Origin: Pyrobaculum ferrireducens
GTDB taxonomy: Archaea; Thermoproteota; Thermoprotei; Thermoproteales; Thermoproteaceae
Length of the DNA: 64,000 nucleotides
Assembly: GCF_000234805.1 (NCBI RefSeq)
Contig: NC_016645.1
Coordinates: 1,960,391 to 2,024,390, forward strand
Direction of reading: 5' to 3'
The notes beneath the pieces are model-generated. The model ran no database searches, was not told where the DNA came from, and saw only the letters and a program-made list of their open reading frames with translations. The stretch's first letter is position 1. Each line of letters opens with the position of its first letter. Made by a program: the position numbers and the translations under genes. This document shows positions 7,482-23,449 of the stretch, in pieces.

Positions 7482-8546
7482 GTGTTAAATATGAAGGTCT
7501 TGGTTGATTGGGTAAGGGCGTTGGCGGTGGTGGTTGTTTTTGTTATAACGTCATTGTCTGTTGGCTTCACTTTTGCGGATGAGGTGGTGTATATGAAAGC
7601 TGGCTTGGGACAACTGAGTGGAACGCCCCCGGCTCTTACTTCGAATCCGGAGCATCCGCCTCTTGCAAAATATCTAATAGGTTTGGCGCCTAGGTGGGCG
7701 CCGTTTATTGCTGGTGTCGTAACGGTGTTTTTGACTGGTTGGCTAGGGCGCTTGTTGGGGAGGCCGTTTTGGCTGGTTTCTCTAAGCTTGGCTACCGACA
7801 TAATATTTGCAAGGACTTCCAGCTTCGCCATGCTTGACGTTTTCGTGGCGCTTTTTTCGGTTTCTGCCGTTATTTCATACCTCTTGGGGAGGAGGTGGCT
7901 GTCGGGGGTGCTGTGGGGGGCGGCGCTTGCCTCTAAATTTACTGCGGCCTTTCCCCTAGCCGGGTTTGTTTTCTACGTTTTGCTGAGGGATAGGAAGTCG
8001 CTGGCGCCGATTACTATAGGCGCGGCGGTGGCCTTTCTGGCCGCCCATGCTGTTGACTTGGCCCATGGCTTGTTTCTATACCACCTCCAGTTCTATTGGT
8101 GGCTTGTGTCTTTCCATAGCCATAAGAATCCTCTTACTGGCTGGCTTACCTTCCTTATGGGGGCGCCGTGGTATGTCTACTACACGAAGTTTCTATACAA
8201 CGGCACAGACACTGTAACGGCGCTGTCGAATCCTGGAGTGTATAAAGTATTGGAGTACGAGATCCAAGTGTCGATTGCGCCGTGGCTTGGCCACGTAGCT
8301 TGGCGCGCAGTTCCAGTTGAATTAATTAGGAAACCATCCCTGGGGCTGGATGCTCTGTTGGTTGCGTCGTCTGTGTTAATATCGCAGTCGGGCTGGTTCT
8401 ACTGGTACTTCGCCGCGGTGGCGCCCTTCTTCCACCTCTACACCCGCCGCATCTATGTAGCTATACAGTTGATATTCATCGCCTTGCTGTACCTAGGCAT
8501 GCCCCCCATCTTGACTTGGCCGCTGGGACCCTTTAAGACGGGATAG
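7482..8546 (+). CDS. GT-C fold membrane glycosyltransferase (PMT/GT39-like)
   Basis: 354 aa, about nine hydrophobic segments. The first extracellular loop has the acidic pair DE after helix 1 (FTFADEVVYMKAG) and NPEHPPLAKYLIG, the pattern of dolichyl-phosphate-sugar protein glycosyltransferases. A later ASKFTAAFPL and a loop with MLDVFVALF also fit. It would transfer a lipid-linked sugar to exported proteins on the outer face of the membrane. Placed between pilin genes, it probably glycosylates surface subunits, which contain many N-x-S/T sites; this is inferred. Start GTG 7482 is about 25 nt after ATTTATTTATC. Codon use is more T-rich than in the housekeeping genes. Confidence 0.75.
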   Translation: MLNMKVLVDWVRALAVVVVFVITSLSVGFTFADEVVYMKAGLGQLSGTPPALTSNPEHPPLAKYLIGLAPRWAPFIAGVVTVFLTGWLGRLLGRPFWLVSLSLATDIIFARTSSFAMLDVFVALFSVSAVISYLLGRRWLSGVLWGAALASKFTAAFPLAGFVFYVLLRDRKSLAPITIGAAVAFLAAHAVDLAHGLFLYHLQFYWWLVSFHSHKNPLTGWLTFLMGAPWYVYYTKFLYNGTDTVTALSNPGVYKVLEYEIQVSIAPWLGHVAWRAVPVELIRKPSLGLDALLVASSVLISQSGWFYWYFAAVAPFFHLYTRRIYVAIQLIFIALLYLGMPPILTWPLGPFKTG

Positions 8547-8634
8547 GCTAGATTAAATCCCGAGTAAGAACGGTATGTGTTGTTATATAATATCTGCAGA
8601 GCTTTTGAAGACGTGGCTGTTGATGTATGCCTAA

Positions 8635-9378
8635 TTGGGAGGAGGGTGTACGATGCGCGTGGCGTCGTCCGCGTGCTGTCTAGACCTGTGTCTCGGCCTT
8701 TTGAGAGCCTTTCTAGAGCTCTTCTCGATGCGGTACAACGCGGCTGTCCCGGCTGAGGCGGTGGCGGAGCTGGCTTTCCACATCCTAGCAGAGGAGTGCG
8801 ACTCCATGTCGGAGTGCTACGTGGAGGCTGTGGTGTAGCTGGGCGATAGGCTTGGTGTGGCGCCGGCGTGTGTTAGGCGGCTTGTTGTCACTATCAGGTT
8901 GAGAAATCTGCTGGTGGATAGGTGCTGGGCGATTGACGACGAGCGGGTTCACAAAGGCGTGAGGAAGGACTTTATCTGTGTTGAGGAGCTTCTTAGCGTG
9001 GTGTGTAGACGCTTGGCTGTTATGTAGTTTAGGGTAGACGCGGGGGCCGTCGTGGAGGGGTTGCGAGGGGGCTACTTCGCGGGGTGGGGACGTCTCGCTG
9101 GCTTTTCCGTCTGGCTCGGTGCTTAGGCTGAGGTACGCCAGCGACATGGAAGTGGGGAAGAGGTATCTGCGCCGCCTTCTGGGGCTGGGCGTGGAGCTTC
9201 TGCTCGGCAATCTGTTGATGTTGTGGCTCTTGGCGAGTTGCCGCCGCGGCTTAGGCTTAAGGGGCTGGGAGGGTGGGTGGTGCCTAAGGTTGTGCCGTAT
9301 GCCGCGGCCGGGGTGTGGTAGCTGGCTGTGGCGGAGCTGGAGGATGTCGAGCTCTGCGGGCTGGCCGCCGGCGTTTCT
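8635..9378 (+). pseudogene. Decayed gene, possibly of a PaREP family
   Basis: Coding-like text runs through several stops and frames: LDLCLGLLRAFLELF and PAEAVAELAFHILAEE (8690-8800), then past TAG at 8836-8838 into LGDRLGVAPACVRRLVV and DFICVEELLSVVCRRLAVM. After about 9119 another frame gives SVDVVALGELPPRLRLKGL and, past a TAG, LAVAELEDVELCGLAAGVS ending near 9378. The same direction and continuity suggest one old gene with at least two stops and one frameshift. The style reminded me of the PaREP2 proteins, but I cannot confirm that. The frame joining this text to the next gene (start 9119) is accidental. Confidence 0.45.
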
Positions 9379-9436
9379 TAGAGTGTGGATAGGCAACATC
9401 ACCGTAATACATATATCCTGGCTTCTTTGGGGGGTC

Positions 9437-12004
9437 ATGAGATATGTATTGCTGGTGTCTCTCCTGGTTGTGCTGGCTTTTGCTTATGTAGTTCCGACGG
9501 AGTCTCTTGACGTGTATTACTGGGCTAAGCCAGATGGGGTGTATGTGGTGGGGCTTGACGGCGCGACGCTTTGGAGCGCTAATGCGGTGTTTCCCCTGGT
9601 GGCGAGCGACTCGGCTGGTAGGTGCTTCGCGGTGGTAAACAGGCCTTATGTATATGACATAGGAGGGGAGGGGCTTAATCTAAGGATCAGCGTGCCTACC
9701 ACTGTGGAGCTTTCTGAGGATCTTCTTGCGACGTTTAGGCAGTACGGCATATCGCTTCCGCCGCGGGTGCCCATTGTTTTAAACATCACGATCCCTCTGC
9801 CGCCTGTCATCATCGCGGCTACGTATAAGACGGCTGTGGCCTCTCTGCATGCTCCGTATGGCTACCCGCTGTGGGCGGTGACGCTGGGGCCCAGGGCCAA
9901 CGCCACGGCGGCGGCCACCGACTGTCAGTACGTGGTGGTGGGCACCATCGGCGGTGAGGTGTATGTGCTTGCCAACGGCCGCGTGGTGGATGTCAAGTCT
10001 CTGGGGGAGCCGGTGACCTCTGCGGCGTGGGGGAGGGCCCCGGGCGTCTTCTACATCGGCACGGCTGGGGGCAGGATCTTCCGCTACTCGCAGGGCTCGC
10101 TGGCGCAGGTCGGCACCTGCAGTGGCCAGGTCTACTCTCTGGCGGCTACGCCGGACGGCTCGGCGGTGGCGGCTTGTTTCAAGAAGGGCGAGAGGCCTGA
10201 GGTGGAGCTGTACCCCTACGGGCTGAGGCTCGCGCCCTCGGTGCTGGCGGAGTATGGGATAGACTCGCCTAGGGTCCCCGCGGCGCTTAGCCAGGACGGC
10301 AGGGTCTTCGCCGTGGGGGTGCAGGACTACGTCGTAGTTTTCGAGGGGGGTAGGGAGTCGTGGAGGGCGAAGGTGCCGTCTCTGCCCCTCGCGGTGGCGG
10401 TTTCGGGCAACGGCTCTGTGGTGGCTGTGGGGACTCTCGGGGGCGACGTTTTGGTGTTTTGGAGGGGGAGGGAGGTGGCGAGGCTTGGGGGGTCCTCGCC
10501 GGTGACTTCTCTGGGGCTTTCGGTGGATGGGAGGGCCCTCGTGGTGGAGAGGTGGACGCAGGCCTCGGCGACGCGGCTGGCCTTTGTCAACATCGCACTT
10601 AAGGTGCCGGGGCAGTGCCTCCCGGCCGACGTGGATGTGAGAGTGGGGGACTCTACATATCTCTACAGGCTCGCCGGTTCGGGGACTGTCTTCATACCGG
10701 TGGGGCGGGTGTCTCTGGCGCCTAGGTATAAGTACATGGGCGACGTGAGGTGTAGGCCTTTGGGCAACGTCACGCTTGACGTGAGGGGGGACGTGGAGGC
10801 GCCGGTGGAGCTGGGCTACGTGCTTGAGTACCGGGTGAGCCTCATGCCCCCCAACATCACTAGGGGGCCCGGCTGGGCTTCTGGCCCCGCCTCTTTCTTT
10901 GCGGAGAGGGTTGTGCAGATACCTGTGGTGGACTCCCCGGTGCAGCAGGGCAGGCTCGTGCTGGTGGGGTGGGAGGTGGATGGCAAGAGGCTCAATCTGT
11001 CTGCTCCCTCGGTTTCGGTAGATGTGTCGAGGCCGACTGAGGTTAAGGCTCTGTATAGGGTGGAGTTGCCGGGCTATGTGCAGGTTAACGCCACGTACAG
11101 GCTTAGGCTTGAGTCTGTGTTTGTCTTCGACAGGTTCGGGACTCCCATCGCCTCTGGCCCCGCGCCGGTGGTTTCCGTATACCCGGTTATTGTGAGGGGG
11201 GTCTACACGCCTCAGGTGCTCGTCTCCACGGTCTTCCCCGCCGTGGTTAACGGCTCGACGTCTCTATGGGCTGATCTGGGTAGCGTTGTTGTTTTCCAGG
11301 GGAGGGACGTTGAGTTTAGAAACGGGACGCGGCTTGCTTTTGTAAAGTGGGTGGAGCTGGACAGCTCTGAAAGGACTGTACAGCTGGTTGCCGACAGGGC
11401 TGTAAGGCTGACGCCTCAGTACGAGGTGCAGTACAGGGTTTGGGCGAAGCTGCCTGCCACCGTTGTGGAACCTGTGAACGCTACCTGGGTGGCTAGGGGC
11501 TCTGCAGTGAAGATAGCGGTTCCCGACGTCTTGAGCCAGCAGGGCAATACGAGGACCGTGGTGGGTCAGTGGGTGATTAACGGCGTCCCCAACGCGACGC
11601 TTAAGGGGAATGTTATCACGCTGAGAGTGACCAAACCGCTTAACGTGACGTATACGGTGAAGCGCCAGTACCTCTTGACGTTTACCACTAGGTACGGTTC
11701 TGTGACGCCAGCTATGTGGGTCGACGAGGGCGGCACAGCCGCGGTGGTTCCAACGCCTATGGATGTGTGGGCCCCGCCTCCGTTGCGTTGGGTATTCGCT
11801 GGGTGGAGAGACACGGCCACCGGGGTGGTGTACAGCTATCCTCAGATGCCGGTTGCGTACGGGCCTGTTACCTACGAGGCGGTCTGGACGCTTGACCTAG
11901 TGCCTATCCTAGCGATCGCCGGTGCGGCGGCCGGCGCTGTGTTTCTGGTCTGGTTCAGGAGGCGTAGGAGGCTGGCTAGGCTCATGGCCGAGGTGCAGGA
12001 GTAA
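9437..12004 (+). CDS. Large membrane-anchored extracellular protein (beta-propeller plus InlB-type repeats)
   Basis: 855 aa. Signal or anchor helix at residues 1-16 (MRYVLLVSLLVVLAFA). Residues about 20-380 show repeated propeller-like blades (SLAATPDGSAVAACF; VVAVGTLGGDVLVF). Residues about 440-820 contain about four modules like divergent InlB B-repeats (RYGSVTPAMWVDEGG, then VFAGW). A single helix near 830 (LAIAGAAAGAVFLVW) and a basic tail anchor it. Many N-x-S/T sites. ATG 9437 is chosen because TAATACATATA lies 26 nt upstream. Its stop overlaps the next start (TAATG), so it heads the pilin-like operon. Likely an adhesin or sheath protein; function inferred. Confidence 0.75.
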   Translation: MRYVLLVSLLVVLAFAYVVPTESLDVYYWAKPDGVYVVGLDGATLWSANAVFPLVASDSAGRCFAVVNRPYVYDIGGEGLNLRISVPTTVELSEDLLATFRQYGISLPPRVPIVLNITIPLPPVIIAATYKTAVASLHAPYGYPLWAVTLGPRANATAAATDCQYVVVGTIGGEVYVLANGRVVDVKSLGEPVTSAAWGRAPGVFYIGTAGGRIFRYSQGSLAQVGTCSGQVYSLAATPDGSAVAACFKKGERPEVELYPYGLRLAPSVLAEYGIDSPRVPAALSQDGRVFAVGVQDYVVVFEGGRESWRAKVPSLPLAVAVSGNGSVVAVGTLGGDVLVFWRGREVARLGGSSPVTSLGLSVDGRALVVERWTQASATRLAFVNIALKVPGQCLPADVDVRVGDSTYLYRLAGSGTVFIPVGRVSLAPRYKYMGDVRCRPLGNVTLDVRGDVEAPVELGYVLEYRVSLMPPNITRGPGWASGPASFFAERVVQIPVVDSPVQQGRLVLVGWEVDGKRLNLSAPSVSVDVSRPTEVKALYRVELPGYVQVNATYRLRLESVFVFDRFGTPIASGPAPVVSVYPVIVRGVYTPQVLVSTVFPAVVNGSTSLWADLGSVVVFQGRDVEFRNGTRLAFVKWVELDSSERTVQLVADRAVRLTPQYEVQYRVWAKLPATVVEPVNATWVARGSAVKIAVPDVLSQQGNTRTVVGQWVINGVPNATLKGNVITLRVTKPLNVTYTVKRQYLLTFTTRYGSVTPAMWVDEGGTAAVVPTPMDVWAPPPLRWVFAGWRDTATGVVYSYPQMPVAYGPVTYEAVWTLDLVPILAIAGAAAGAVFLVWFRRRRRLARLMAEVQE

Positions 12005-19741: not shown

Positions 19742-20302
19742 TCAAAATACTATGTAGAAATTGTAGTGCCTCCCCCTCCGCATTACCCCGGCCGAGAGGA
19801 CGGGGGTGGGGGCCACGGCCAGCAGGTCCTCCAGCTGGTACTGGAAGTAGATCCTCCTGGCTTTGCCTCCCCACGGCACCTCCCAGACGCCCGGCGCGAT
19901 TTCGCGCCCCCTCCAAACGTCGGGCGCCCAGACAGTAGCCACGGCCACCCGCCCCACCCGCCTAGCCTCTCTTAAAGCAAGCGCCGCCGCGTCGCGGGGC
20001 ATGTGGTGGATAACCGCCACAAGGTACACCACGTCGAAGGCACCGTCTCTAAAGGGCATCATCGTCGCTTCGCACTCCACAGAATCCCCGCCGGGCGTCA
20101 TCCTCCGGTCGAGGTCGCAGTGGACAACAAAGCCGTGTTCATGTTCCAGATACCTCGGCTGGGCCCCCCTGCCGCACCCGACGTCAAGCGCCCTGCGGCC
20201 GAACGAGGCGAAGTCCGCGACGGGCAGAGGCCTCCTCCTCGTCGCCTCGTACTCCTCACCGATTGAGATGTACGCCTCTCTAGCCTCTTTCGCCCACCAC
20301 AT
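19742..20302 (-). CDS. Trm9/ABH8-like SAM-dependent methyltransferase
   Basis: 186 aa class I methyltransferase. Motif I is ALDVGCGRG; the N-terminal signature IGEEYEATRRRPLP and the later VYLVAVIHHM strongly recall Trm9, which methylates the carboxymethyl group on tRNA U34 made by the Elp3 pathway. Finding it about 1 kb from elp3 supports that role, though the two genes converge. Its start overlaps the end of the nucleotidyltransferase gene by 23 nt, so it is probably expressed with that gene. The trm9-type substrate assignment is inferred. Confidence 0.75.
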   Translation of the reverse strand: MWWAKEAREAYISIGEEYEATRRRPLPVADFASFGRRALDVGCGRGAQPRYLEHEHGFVVHCDLDRRMTPGGDSVECEATMMPFRDGAFDVVYLVAVIHHMPRDAAALALREARRVGRVAVATVWAPDVWRGREIAPGVWEVPWGGKARRIYFQYQLEDLLAVAPTPVLSAGVMRRGRHYNFYIVF

Positions 20303-20843
20303 CTTGTAGAGCTGAGAAGGTCTTCTCGACGACGCGCCTCATTTCCTCCAGCTTTTTATCAACGCCGTTGCCCCTTGCGAATTCAAGGGGGTAGTCCCGG
20401 TTGAGGTGCTCTCTCTGTGCGCTCAGCACCGCGGCGGCGCGTTCGCAGTCGGCTGGGGGCTCCCCGTAGACGCACGAGTTGGGGCTGGACACAATGGCGT
20501 CTTCCGGCGACTGGACGTATACGCTACCTCCACATGTACGTAACCCCTTTACGCGGCCTGTGTAGGTATATCCGACGAGGTCTAGGTAGAGGGCGCCGGG
20601 CCCCTCGTACACCCGCGACACCTTTCTCCACCCACGTTTTGCAACAAGCTCTTCAAAGACGTGCCGGGCCTCCCTCACCCTCGGGGTATCTATGACAAAA
20701 TCTATATCTCCTCTTCTGTAGGCCACCCCGCTGTACAGCTCCACCGCGAAGCCGCCCACAACAACTACCCTCCCTAGGCCACGCCGCCAAACCTCTTCAT
20801 TCAGCTCAGCCAAAAACCCAAGCGCGGGGCTACAGGAGCTCAT
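20280..20843 (-). CDS. Nucleotidyltransferase-fold protein (MNT/AbiEii-like)
   Basis: About 187 aa. Motif VVVGGFAVELYSG followed by RRGDIDFVID is the GG...D-x-D core of pol-beta-type nucleotidyltransferases, as in MNT antitoxins and AbiEii-type toxins. ATG 20843 overlaps the upstream 64-aa gene by 14 nt; the in-frame ATG at 20861 is possible but overlaps more. The partner is not HEPN-like, so a standard MNT/HEPN pair is not evident. The third acidic residue could be in LYLDLVGY. Confidence 0.7.
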   Translation of the reverse strand: MSSCSPALGFLAELNEEVWRRGLGRVVVVGGFAVELYSGVAYRRGDIDFVIDTPRVREARHVFEELVAKRGWRKVSRVYEGPGALYLDLVGYTYTGRVKGLRTCGGSVYVQSPEDAIVSSPNSCVYGEPPADCERAAAVLSAQREHLNRDYPLEFARGNGVDKKLEEMRRVVEKTFSALQDVVGERG

Positions 20844-21024
20844 CCACGACGTATACACCATCCATCAACCTAACTCTGTACCTCTTATGCGGCTCGAGGC
20901 CTCTAAGCGTAAATACATCGTCTGAAGGCCAAATCACATTTCGCCCCAGCCTCGCAGACATTATGATAATCTTCTCTAGCCTCTCCTCAGCCGCCTCCTT
21001 GGGGAAACGCCTTACACGCCCCAC
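20830..21024 (-). CDS. Small protein upstream of the nucleotidyltransferase, 64 aa
   Basis: Basic N-terminal half (GRVRRFPKEAAEERLEKIIIM) and a C-terminal beta-like half (YRVRLMDGVYVVDELL). GTG 21024 is chosen because TATTTATAA (complement of 21044-21052) is centred 24 nt upstream and lies inside the longer frame, which excludes a TTG start at 21056. It overlaps the nucleotidyltransferase start, so the two form a unit with toxin-antitoxin-like layout. Family unknown. Confidence 0.6.
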   Translation of the reverse strand: MGRVRRFPKEAAEERLEKIIIMSARLGRNVIWPSDDVFTLRGLEPHKRYRVRLMDGVYVVDELL

Positions 21025-21043: not shown

Positions 21044-21052
21044 TTATAAATA
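21044..21052. promoter_or_regulatory. AT box, possibly bidirectional (small gene / structured RNA)
   Basis: TTATAAATA centred at 21048. On the reverse strand it fits the GTG at 21024. On the forward strand the same spacing predicts a 5' end at about 21071, exactly where the first hairpin of the structured RNA candidate begins. Confidence 0.5.
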
Positions 21053-21070: not shown

Positions 21071-21310
21071 CTGCTTGACGCAGTGGGGAGGGGGGGGGGC
21101 GCCGGGTACCCCCGCTTCTGTTGGGGTATGTGTCTATCCCCCTACCCGGGCCTCGCGCGGGCCTCACAGGCCCTGCTTGGGGGCCGCGCCTCCAGCTGGT
21201 TTTTACCCCCGCCTTTCGGCGGCCCGCTGGAGGCTCCCCGCGGCGGTGCGGGAGGTTCCAGAGGCTGGCCGTCTCCGAGCCAGCCCCGTCCCCTCGGCGC
21301 CCCTATTTTC
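21071..21310 (+). ncRNA. GC-rich, highly structured RNA candidate of unknown class
   Basis: No protein frame is credible, yet the segment is packed with exact inverted repeats. A closing stem pairs GGGGCGCCG (21096-21104) with CGGCGCCCC (21295-21303). Inside are GGGTA/TACCC (21104-21108 with 21143-21147), GGGCCT-CAC-AGGCCC (21159-21173), CCTCCAGC/GCTGGAGG (21189-21196 with 21226-21233) holding CCGCC-TTTC-GGCGG (21209-21222), CCCGC/GCGGG (21237-21241 with 21248-21252) and GGCTGG/CCAGCC (21263-21268 with 21280-21285). A small hairpin CTGC/GCAG (21071-21083) starts at the predicted transcription start, and TATTTTC (21304-21310) could terminate it. I found no SRP helix 8 motif, no RNase P CR-I or CR-V, and no tRNA T-arm. 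Confidence 0.55.
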
Positions 21311-21392
21311 TAGCAGTGCTGGGATATAAGCTTTACACGGTTGCCCCTGTAGTATATCTGTGCTTGTTTTTATATCGGGTTTTTGTGAGTTA

Positions 21393-22205
21393 ATGGTGTT
21401 GCTGATGGGCCGTGTTGATGGGGTGCCTAGGAGAGTTGTGAGTCTTAACCCGTCTGTTAACGAGTTTTTGGCGTTGCTCGGCGTTGAGGTCGTCGGGCGC
21501 GATGCCTTTTCGTACAGGCCGAGGGAGCTGATGAAGGTGCCTATCGTGGGTACGTTTACAGATTTCGATGTGGAACGGGCGCGGGCGCTGGCCCCCGACT
21601 TGTTTATCCTCTACTACCCGGTGCAGAGACATTTGTTAGAAAAGGCGGCGGAGGTGTCCAGGGCTGTTGTGGCTGTGCCGACACCTGTGAATATCGACGC
21701 GGTGGTTGCCGTATTTAGGTTCTTCGCAAGGCTTTTCGATCGCGACGAGGAGGGGGACAGACTAGCCGGGGTGTACCGAGATTTGTTGAGGGGGGCGCCG
21801 CTGTACGACGGCGTTCTTGCGATTATAAACCTCGGCGTGTACGACGTGGCTTGCAGCAACTCCTACGTGGCGGACGCGCTTACGAAGGCGGGTCTGAGAT
21901 ATCTGGGGGGGCTCCCATGCGTCTTTATACACTACGAAGAGCCCCCGCTGGGGTTGCTGGAAAGGGCTAGCTTTGTGATTTACGAAGCCAGGGGGAGGAG
22001 CTACAGCGAGCGTGAGGTGGAGTTCCTGAGGGGGAGGGAGTACGTGGTGACTCCAAACGACACCCTGGCGCACTACGGCCCCTCTCTGCCCCTAGATCTC
22101 GGGCTCCTCACCGCCGCCGTCGCCAGGGGGGAGAGGTGGGCGGGGGGCGCCTCCAGCGTCTCGAGGCCCTCCCTGCGGGACGCCTGGTACGGCCCCTATA
22201 GATGA
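21393..22205 (+). CDS. BtuF/FepB-fold periplasmic-binding-like protein without signal peptide
   Basis: 270 aa. The opening RRVVSLNPSVNEFLALLG and the repeat DVERARALAPDLFILY are the signature of class III (helical-backbone) substrate-binding proteins that bind corrinoids or iron chelates. There is no export signal or lipobox, so it is probably cytoplasmic, like similar archaeal proteins. ATG 21393 is 22-25 nt after TTTTTATATCG, so the mRNA should be leaderless and the structured RNA upstream is not its leader. Overlaps tiaS by 4 nt (ATGA). Ligand unknown. Confidence 0.75.
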   Translation: MVLLMGRVDGVPRRVVSLNPSVNEFLALLGVEVVGRDAFSYRPRELMKVPIVGTFTDFDVERARALAPDLFILYYPVQRHLLEKAAEVSRAVVAVPTPVNIDAVVAVFRFFARLFDRDEEGDRLAGVYRDLLRGAPLYDGVLAIINLGVYDVACSNSYVADALTKAGLRYLGGLPCVFIHYEEPPLGLLERASFVIYEARGRSYSEREVEFLRGREYVVTPNDTLAHYGPSLPLDLGLLTAAVARGERWAGGASSVSRPSLRDAWYGPYR

Positions 22206-23449
22206 GGGTTTACATAGGGATCGACGACACAGACAGCCACAGGGGGGGTTGCACAACGTATGTAGGCTACGTATTTGCGAAGGAGGTGTTGAAGAGGTGG
22301 GGCCCCGGGGCCTTCCAAGACTTCCCCCGGCTCATTAGGCTGAACCCCAACGTGCCGTTTAAGACTAGGGGCAACGCCGCCGTGTCCCTAGCCCTAGATG
22401 TGCCGCCCGGCGACGTAGATGAGCTCTGGAGACTCGCCGTGGAGGTGGTCCAAACCCTCGCCAGGCGGGAGGGCAAGACAGACCCAGGCGTCGCCATGGC
22501 CGTCGGCGCCGTGCCGGAGCGCGCGCGGGTCCTATACAGAATGGCGCTGACGCAGGTGGTTAGCATAAGCGCGGCTGAGCGCGCAGGGCTTAAGACGTGG
22601 GGCGGCAGGGGTAGGATAGGCGCCGCCGCCGCCGTGGGGGCGGAGCTCCCCCTCTCCACCTTCGAGCTCATCGCCTACCGCGAGGGGGAGAGGCTACCGA
22701 TACCCCCCCAGCTGGCGAGGACCATGGAGGCCCTCACCTATCCATTCACCTTTCACAACGTCGATAGGAACAGGGTGTTGATCGAGCCCAGGGGGCCCGA
22801 CCCCGTGTACTTCGGCGTGAGGGGGCTAACCCCCCAGCACCTCGTATACGCAGAGTCTCTTTTAGAAAGCTGGGGCTTCAAGCCGTCGGGCTGGGTTATC
22901 TACAGGACTAACCAAGCCGTGGACGCCCACATCGAGCTGGGGATCTACTTCGAAGAGCCCTATCCCTACTCTTTCTACAGAGCCAGGGGGGTAATACAAG
23001 GCGTAAAGAGGGTGGGGGGGAGGCATCTTGTGGGGTGGCTGGACAGCGGCCTTCCGTTCGTGGTCTATAGACATCTGGGGAGAATGGCGGCTGAGCTGGA
23101 GAGGTGCGTTGGGTGCGACGTGGAGCTCTACGGGGGGCTGAAGCCCCGCGGGGGGCGGCTCTACCTATACGTAGAGAGGGCGTACATCCTCGGGCGCTAC
23201 CGGAGGGCTAGAGAGAGGTGTCCCTACTGCGGAGGCTCGCTGGAAAGCGCCGGGGCTGGGAAGGGCTGGAGATGCCGCGTCTGCGGCACGCTGTTCCGCC
23301 GGGCCGCCACCAGGTGGATATACGACCACGCCCCCAGGGCTCTGATTCTGCCCAGGCCCGGCGAGTGGCGCCACCTCCTTAGGCCGCCCGGGGTTGAGCC
23401 GGAGATCGCAAGCTTCTTCTCCCCCAGCGCCGTCAGGTGGATTGTCTAG
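22202..23449 (+). CDS. tiaS: tRNA(Ile2) 2-agmatinylcytidine synthetase TiaS
   Basis: TiaS puts agmatine on C34 of tRNA-Ile(CAU), so that it reads AUA. The protein (415 aa) starts with the typical YIGIDDTDSHRGGCTTY, has the central kinase-like domain and the OB region, and ends with a zinc ribbon (CPYCGG ... CRVCG). It is cotranscribed with the binding-protein-like gene (4-nt overlap), and its 3' end overlaps the convergent sufD-like gene by 4 nt. Assignment is secure. Confidence 0.95.
   Translation: MRVYIGIDDTDSHRGGCTTYVGYVFAKEVLKRWGPGAFQDFPRLIRLNPNVPFKTRGNAAVSLALDVPPGDVDELWRLAVEVVQTLARREGKTDPGVAMAVGAVPERARVLYRMALTQVVSISAAERAGLKTWGGRGRIGAAAAVGAELPLSTFELIAYREGERLPIPPQLARTMEALTYPFTFHNVDRNRVLIEPRGPDPVYFGVRGLTPQHLVYAESLLESWGFKPSGWVIYRTNQAVDAHIELGIYFEEPYPYSFYRARGVIQGVKRVGGRHLVGWLDSGLPFVVYRHLGRMAAELERCVGCDVELYGGLKPRGGRLYLYVERAYILGRYRRARERCPYCGGSLESAGAGKGWRCRVCGTLFRRAATRWIYDHAPRALILPRPGEWRHLLRPPGVEPEIASFFSPSAVRWIV

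Follow-up and report, generated by a model that had tools for sequence, protein, structure and literature searches.

RNase P RNA removes the 5′ leaders of precursor tRNAs. The canonical archaeal RNA, type A (Rfam family RF00373), and a minimal form, type T (also type P; RNaseP-T, RF02357), are related ribozymes that have in common a catalytic core with helices P1 and P4, but in type T the specificity domain is almost entirely missing. RNaseP-T was described in 2010 (Lai et al., PNAS 107:22493, cited in PMC7191817, PMC4919922, and PMC4919917) and, according to these citing papers, occurs in Pyrobaculum, Thermoproteus, Caldivirga, and Vulcanisaeta. Two of them (PMC7191817 and PMC4919922) attribute to Lai et al. 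the description of the type as one that retains the catalytic domain but hardly any of the specificity domain, and the first cites the same work for the catalytic activity of family members. Rpp21, a protein that binds the specificity domain, is reported to be missing in Thermoproteaceae (PMC4919917).

Here, we describe an RNA gene in a 64,000-nt stretch of the Pyrobaculum ferrireducens genome (“the window”), where sequence inspection had originally led to the prediction of a new, plus-strand structured RNA. The block is a known gene that has already been described, not a new RNA. We put at about 0.99 the probability that positions 21303–21096 of the minus strand are the genome’s single intact RNase P RNA gene (rnpB), of minimal type T, with its own minus-strand TATA promoter, a catalytic-domain fold, and a role in 5′-leader cleavage of precursor tRNAs. 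Given that the RNA type dates from 2010 and is present in Rfam, the finding is an ordinary one; nevertheless, the RNA is an essential tRNA-processing ribozyme in minimal form, and its correct naming matters for annotation.

Identity of the structured block

The block originally delimited (21071–21310) is GC-rich, non-coding, and highly structured, with a perfect 9-bp closing stem and several inner helices. In these respects the original prediction was accurate: the stem (21096–21104 with 21295–21303) is intact, the block as given folds with −138.4 kcal/mol (z = −2.6 against dinucleotide shuffles), and a 90-aa plus-strand frame has no Pfam match, leaving no convincing protein there. A stand-alone RNA gene, neither leader nor riboswitch, was also correctly proposed. 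However, RNase P RNA had been compared and dismissed, even in the reduced form known from Pyrobaculum, apparently because only the plus strand was folded or compared, and a significant match to an established RNA family had been named as grounds for refutation. Such a match exists: when the window was scanned with all Rfam families, exactly one exceeded its cut-off, RF02357, on the minus strand, at 21303–21096 (196.2 bits, E = 6.1e-44; gathering score, 60 bits). The match is full length, covering model positions 1–208 of 208, and places the 5′ end of the RNA near 21303 and the 3′ end near 21096, inside the limits first given. In a focused Rfam scan, the alignment marked no broken pairs and included the conserved stretches GGAACCUCCCGCACCGCC and ACAGAAGCGGGGGUA. 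The gene thus has all the consensus helices of the type, in the genus in which the type was discovered, and departs from it by species-level changes only (e.g., a hairpin tip of CCCGCG for CCGCGG). Matches to htlv_FSE, MIMT1_1, and Methylosinus-1, on either strand, fell far below the Rfam cut-offs inside the RNase P RNA and are chance matches. A tRNA search found none in the window.

Of 41 genomes searched with RF02357 (this one and 40 relatives), 39 gave a match over the cut-off, as against 0 of 14 controls. The positions found in P. oguniense, P. islandicum, P. aerophilum, and P. neutrophilum (G002, G004, G006, and G009), and in P. calidifontis, T. uzoniensis, T. tenax, and Caldivirga maquilingensis (G010, G015, G016, and G019), are those of the T-type rnpB entries in Table 1 of PMC7191817. 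A covariance-model search for the canonical archaeal RNA (RF00373) gave zero matches in the P. ferrireducens genome. The only RNase P RNA there is of the RF02357 type, the other over-cut-off match being a 3′-half remnant (see below). A third RF02357 match (G000:C1:80199-80331, 26.6 bits), which resembles one in G003, the nearest of the relatives sampled, lies in an apparent long coding region with its central part unaligned and is probably due to chance.

Fold and covariation

Covariation among relatives, proposed at the outset as a check, supports the stems. We aligned 17 Thermoproteaceae orthologues and considered the Rfam helices together with a long-range core helix. Standard pairs form in 98.0% of helix cells when three non-standard Rfam pairs (tandem G·A pairs and one G–A) are left out, and in 93.1% with them. 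Two-sided, compensatory changes occur in 16 of 57 pairs, as compared with a mean of 5.6 in shuffled alignments; none of 500 shuffles reached 16. When partners were slid by 1–3 columns, the proportion of paired cells dropped to 42–57%.

The closing stem is helix P1 of the family, with its 5′ strand, GGGGCGCCG, at 21295–21303 and its 3′ strand, CGGCGCCCC, at 21096–21104 (minus strand). Six of its nine pairs have changed on both sides among the aligned sequences, and these changes include a wholesale exchange, to CGCCCGCGG/CCGCGGGCG, in two Thermoproteus genomes. A 7-bp, pseudoknotted helix joins the conserved 5′ and 3′ regions over a long range: CUCCCGC at RNA positions 50–56 (21248–21254, minus strand) pairs with GCGGGGG, which follows ACAGAA, at RNA positions 189–195 (21109–21115). 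This core helix, which we assign as P4, is invariant in all 17 sequences and hence shows no covariation.

A further hairpin at RNA positions 131–156 (21148–21173, minus strand) resembles a kink-turn, GGGCC-UGU-GA-G...C-GA-GGCCC, with tandem G·A pairs. Its UGAG and GAG columns are invariant in 17 of 17 sequences, and Rfam draws the tandem G·A as consensus pairs. L7Ae-family proteins are encoded in the genome, and the hairpin is plausibly an L7Ae site. Type T RNA has kept this candidate site despite the near-complete loss of the specificity domain.

Strand, promoter, and a second copy of the gene

Folding energy alone cannot tell the strand, because Watson–Crick helices survive reverse complementation. 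Indeed, z for the exact 208-nt gene is −4.2 when the minus strand is folded and −3.7 for the plus strand, and this near-symmetry is one of two points in favor of the new plus-strand RNA first proposed, the other being an AT box at 21044–21052 that was read as its promoter. Non-Watson–Crick cells do discriminate: across the 17 orthologues, the minus-strand reading of the helices has 48 G–U cells versus 8 A–C cells, whereas a plus-strand RNA would need the reverse, so the minus strand is favored. Rfam likewise gives its full-length match on the minus strand alone. In the orthologues, an AT-rich box with a mean AT content of 0.73–0.82 precedes the minus-strand 5′ end at −32 to −21, whereas the flank of the supposed plus-strand start has no AT peak at a comparable distance in these sequences. 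In the window, the peak corresponds to an archaeal TATA-like box, TTATATCC, at 21322–21329 (minus strand), about 20–27 nt upstream of the 5′ end, which belongs to the RNase P RNA promoter. The AT box at 21044–21052 reads TATTTATAA on the minus strand and, since it lies ~24 nt before the GTG start codon of a small minus-strand gene, is most likely the leaderless promoter of that gene rather than of a plus-strand RNA. The T-rich tract (CTATTTTCTA) once taken for a terminator is the complement of an A-rich stretch directly before the 5′ end of the RNA. We therefore consider a novel plus-strand RNA very improbable, and the general lesson is that both strands should be scored before a symmetric multi-helix RNA is called new.

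Still less probable is a reading in which the type T gene in the window is inactive or xenologous and another locus does the work of RNase P. The genome-wide search did find a further over-cut-off RF02357 match, at G000:C1:567368-567547 (84.8 bits), but the match is RNase P RNA in its 3′ part only: a remnant of ~109 nt, corresponding to model positions ~98–208, on the plus strand (L033:7440-7548, i.e., G000:C1:567439-567547). It has neither the 5′ strands of P1 and P4 nor the 5′ hairpin; formation of P1 and of the P4-type helix is impossible, and the remnant is presumably dead. The window copy, by contrast, is complete and has a promoter.

Origin of the remnant

The remnant is 88% identical to the window rnpB and 95–96% identical to the rnpB genes of T. 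uzoniensis and P. aerophilum. It is flanked on one side by a 545-nt piece of a glycogen-synthase-like gene (named from its sequence) and on the other by a 1,281-nt MFS transporter region. Both flanks (L033:6904-7440 and 8217-9496) align with the T. uzoniensis rnpB locus (L007) at ~94% identity and keep its order. Relative to L007, ~1.05 kb is absent, with a single shared T at the junction, and this gap removes the 5′ halves of rnpB and of the adjacent glycogen-synthase-like gene. Because of the identity of the flanks to the T. uzoniensis locus, we regard the remnant as a horizontally acquired and subsequently deleted xenologue: very probably, the genome gained a Thermoproteus-type rnpB locus in addition to its own rnpB, and one deletion of ~1.05 kb then took the 5′ half of the gene. 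If so, this small evolutionary curiosity would directly document the passage of an RNase P RNA gene from one genus to another, into a genome that kept its resident copy. No second rnpB copy was found in G003, and a limited literature search found no mention of the remnant. A mobile-element origin was also considered and rejected: the conserved pattern was not found in viral contigs, nor the fragment in phages, there is no tRNA nearby, and the flanks are instead colinear with the Thermoproteus locus.

Mechanism and RNase P proteins

In the mechanism that we propose, rnpB would be transcribed from its own minus-strand TATA promoter, and the RNA would fold into a catalytic domain consisting of P1, the P4 core pseudoknot, and peripheral hairpins, with almost no specificity domain. 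Together with its proteins, the type T RNA would then remove 5′ leaders from precursor tRNAs. The window and its relatives directly show the fold of the RNA, its strand, its orthology, and where its promoter lies; cleavage of precursor tRNAs by the window RNA is expected by analogy with published work on orthologues in the same family.

The protein complement was searched with Pfam profiles. Rpp21 (PF04032) had no match in the genome, whereas four control archaea matched. The lack of a canonical RNase P RNA together with the lack of an Rpp21 match is as published for the family (PMC4919917). The Pop5 and Rpp30 profiles also had no match in the genome at E = 1e-3, although such generic models may miss divergent members; we tentatively take their silence as divergence rather than absence, and see in it no serious objection to the identification.

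Gene neighborhood of rnpB

In most Pyrobaculum genomes, rnpB adjoins genes for Peripla_BP_2 and/or TiaS (in the window, rnpB at 21096–21303 and these genes at 21390–23449). The orientation varies: rnpB is divergent from Peripla_BP_2 in the window, G003, G002, and G006, and lies upstream of it on the same strand in G004, G008, G009, G007, and G001. Among Pyrobaculum genomes, rnpB has either flipped in place or undergone rearrangement.

On the other side of rnpB in the window is the small downstream gene mentioned above (20830–21024, minus strand), an ORF of ~64 aa from the GTG at 21024. A protein 93% identical to its product is encoded beside rnpB in G003. The small ORF (about 64–75 aa) overlaps a DUF2204-type nucleotidyltransferase gene (the two spanning 20280–21024, minus strand). 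The pair also neighbors rnpB in G003, whereas in G012 it lies on the opposite side of rnpB; it possibly forms a two-gene module.
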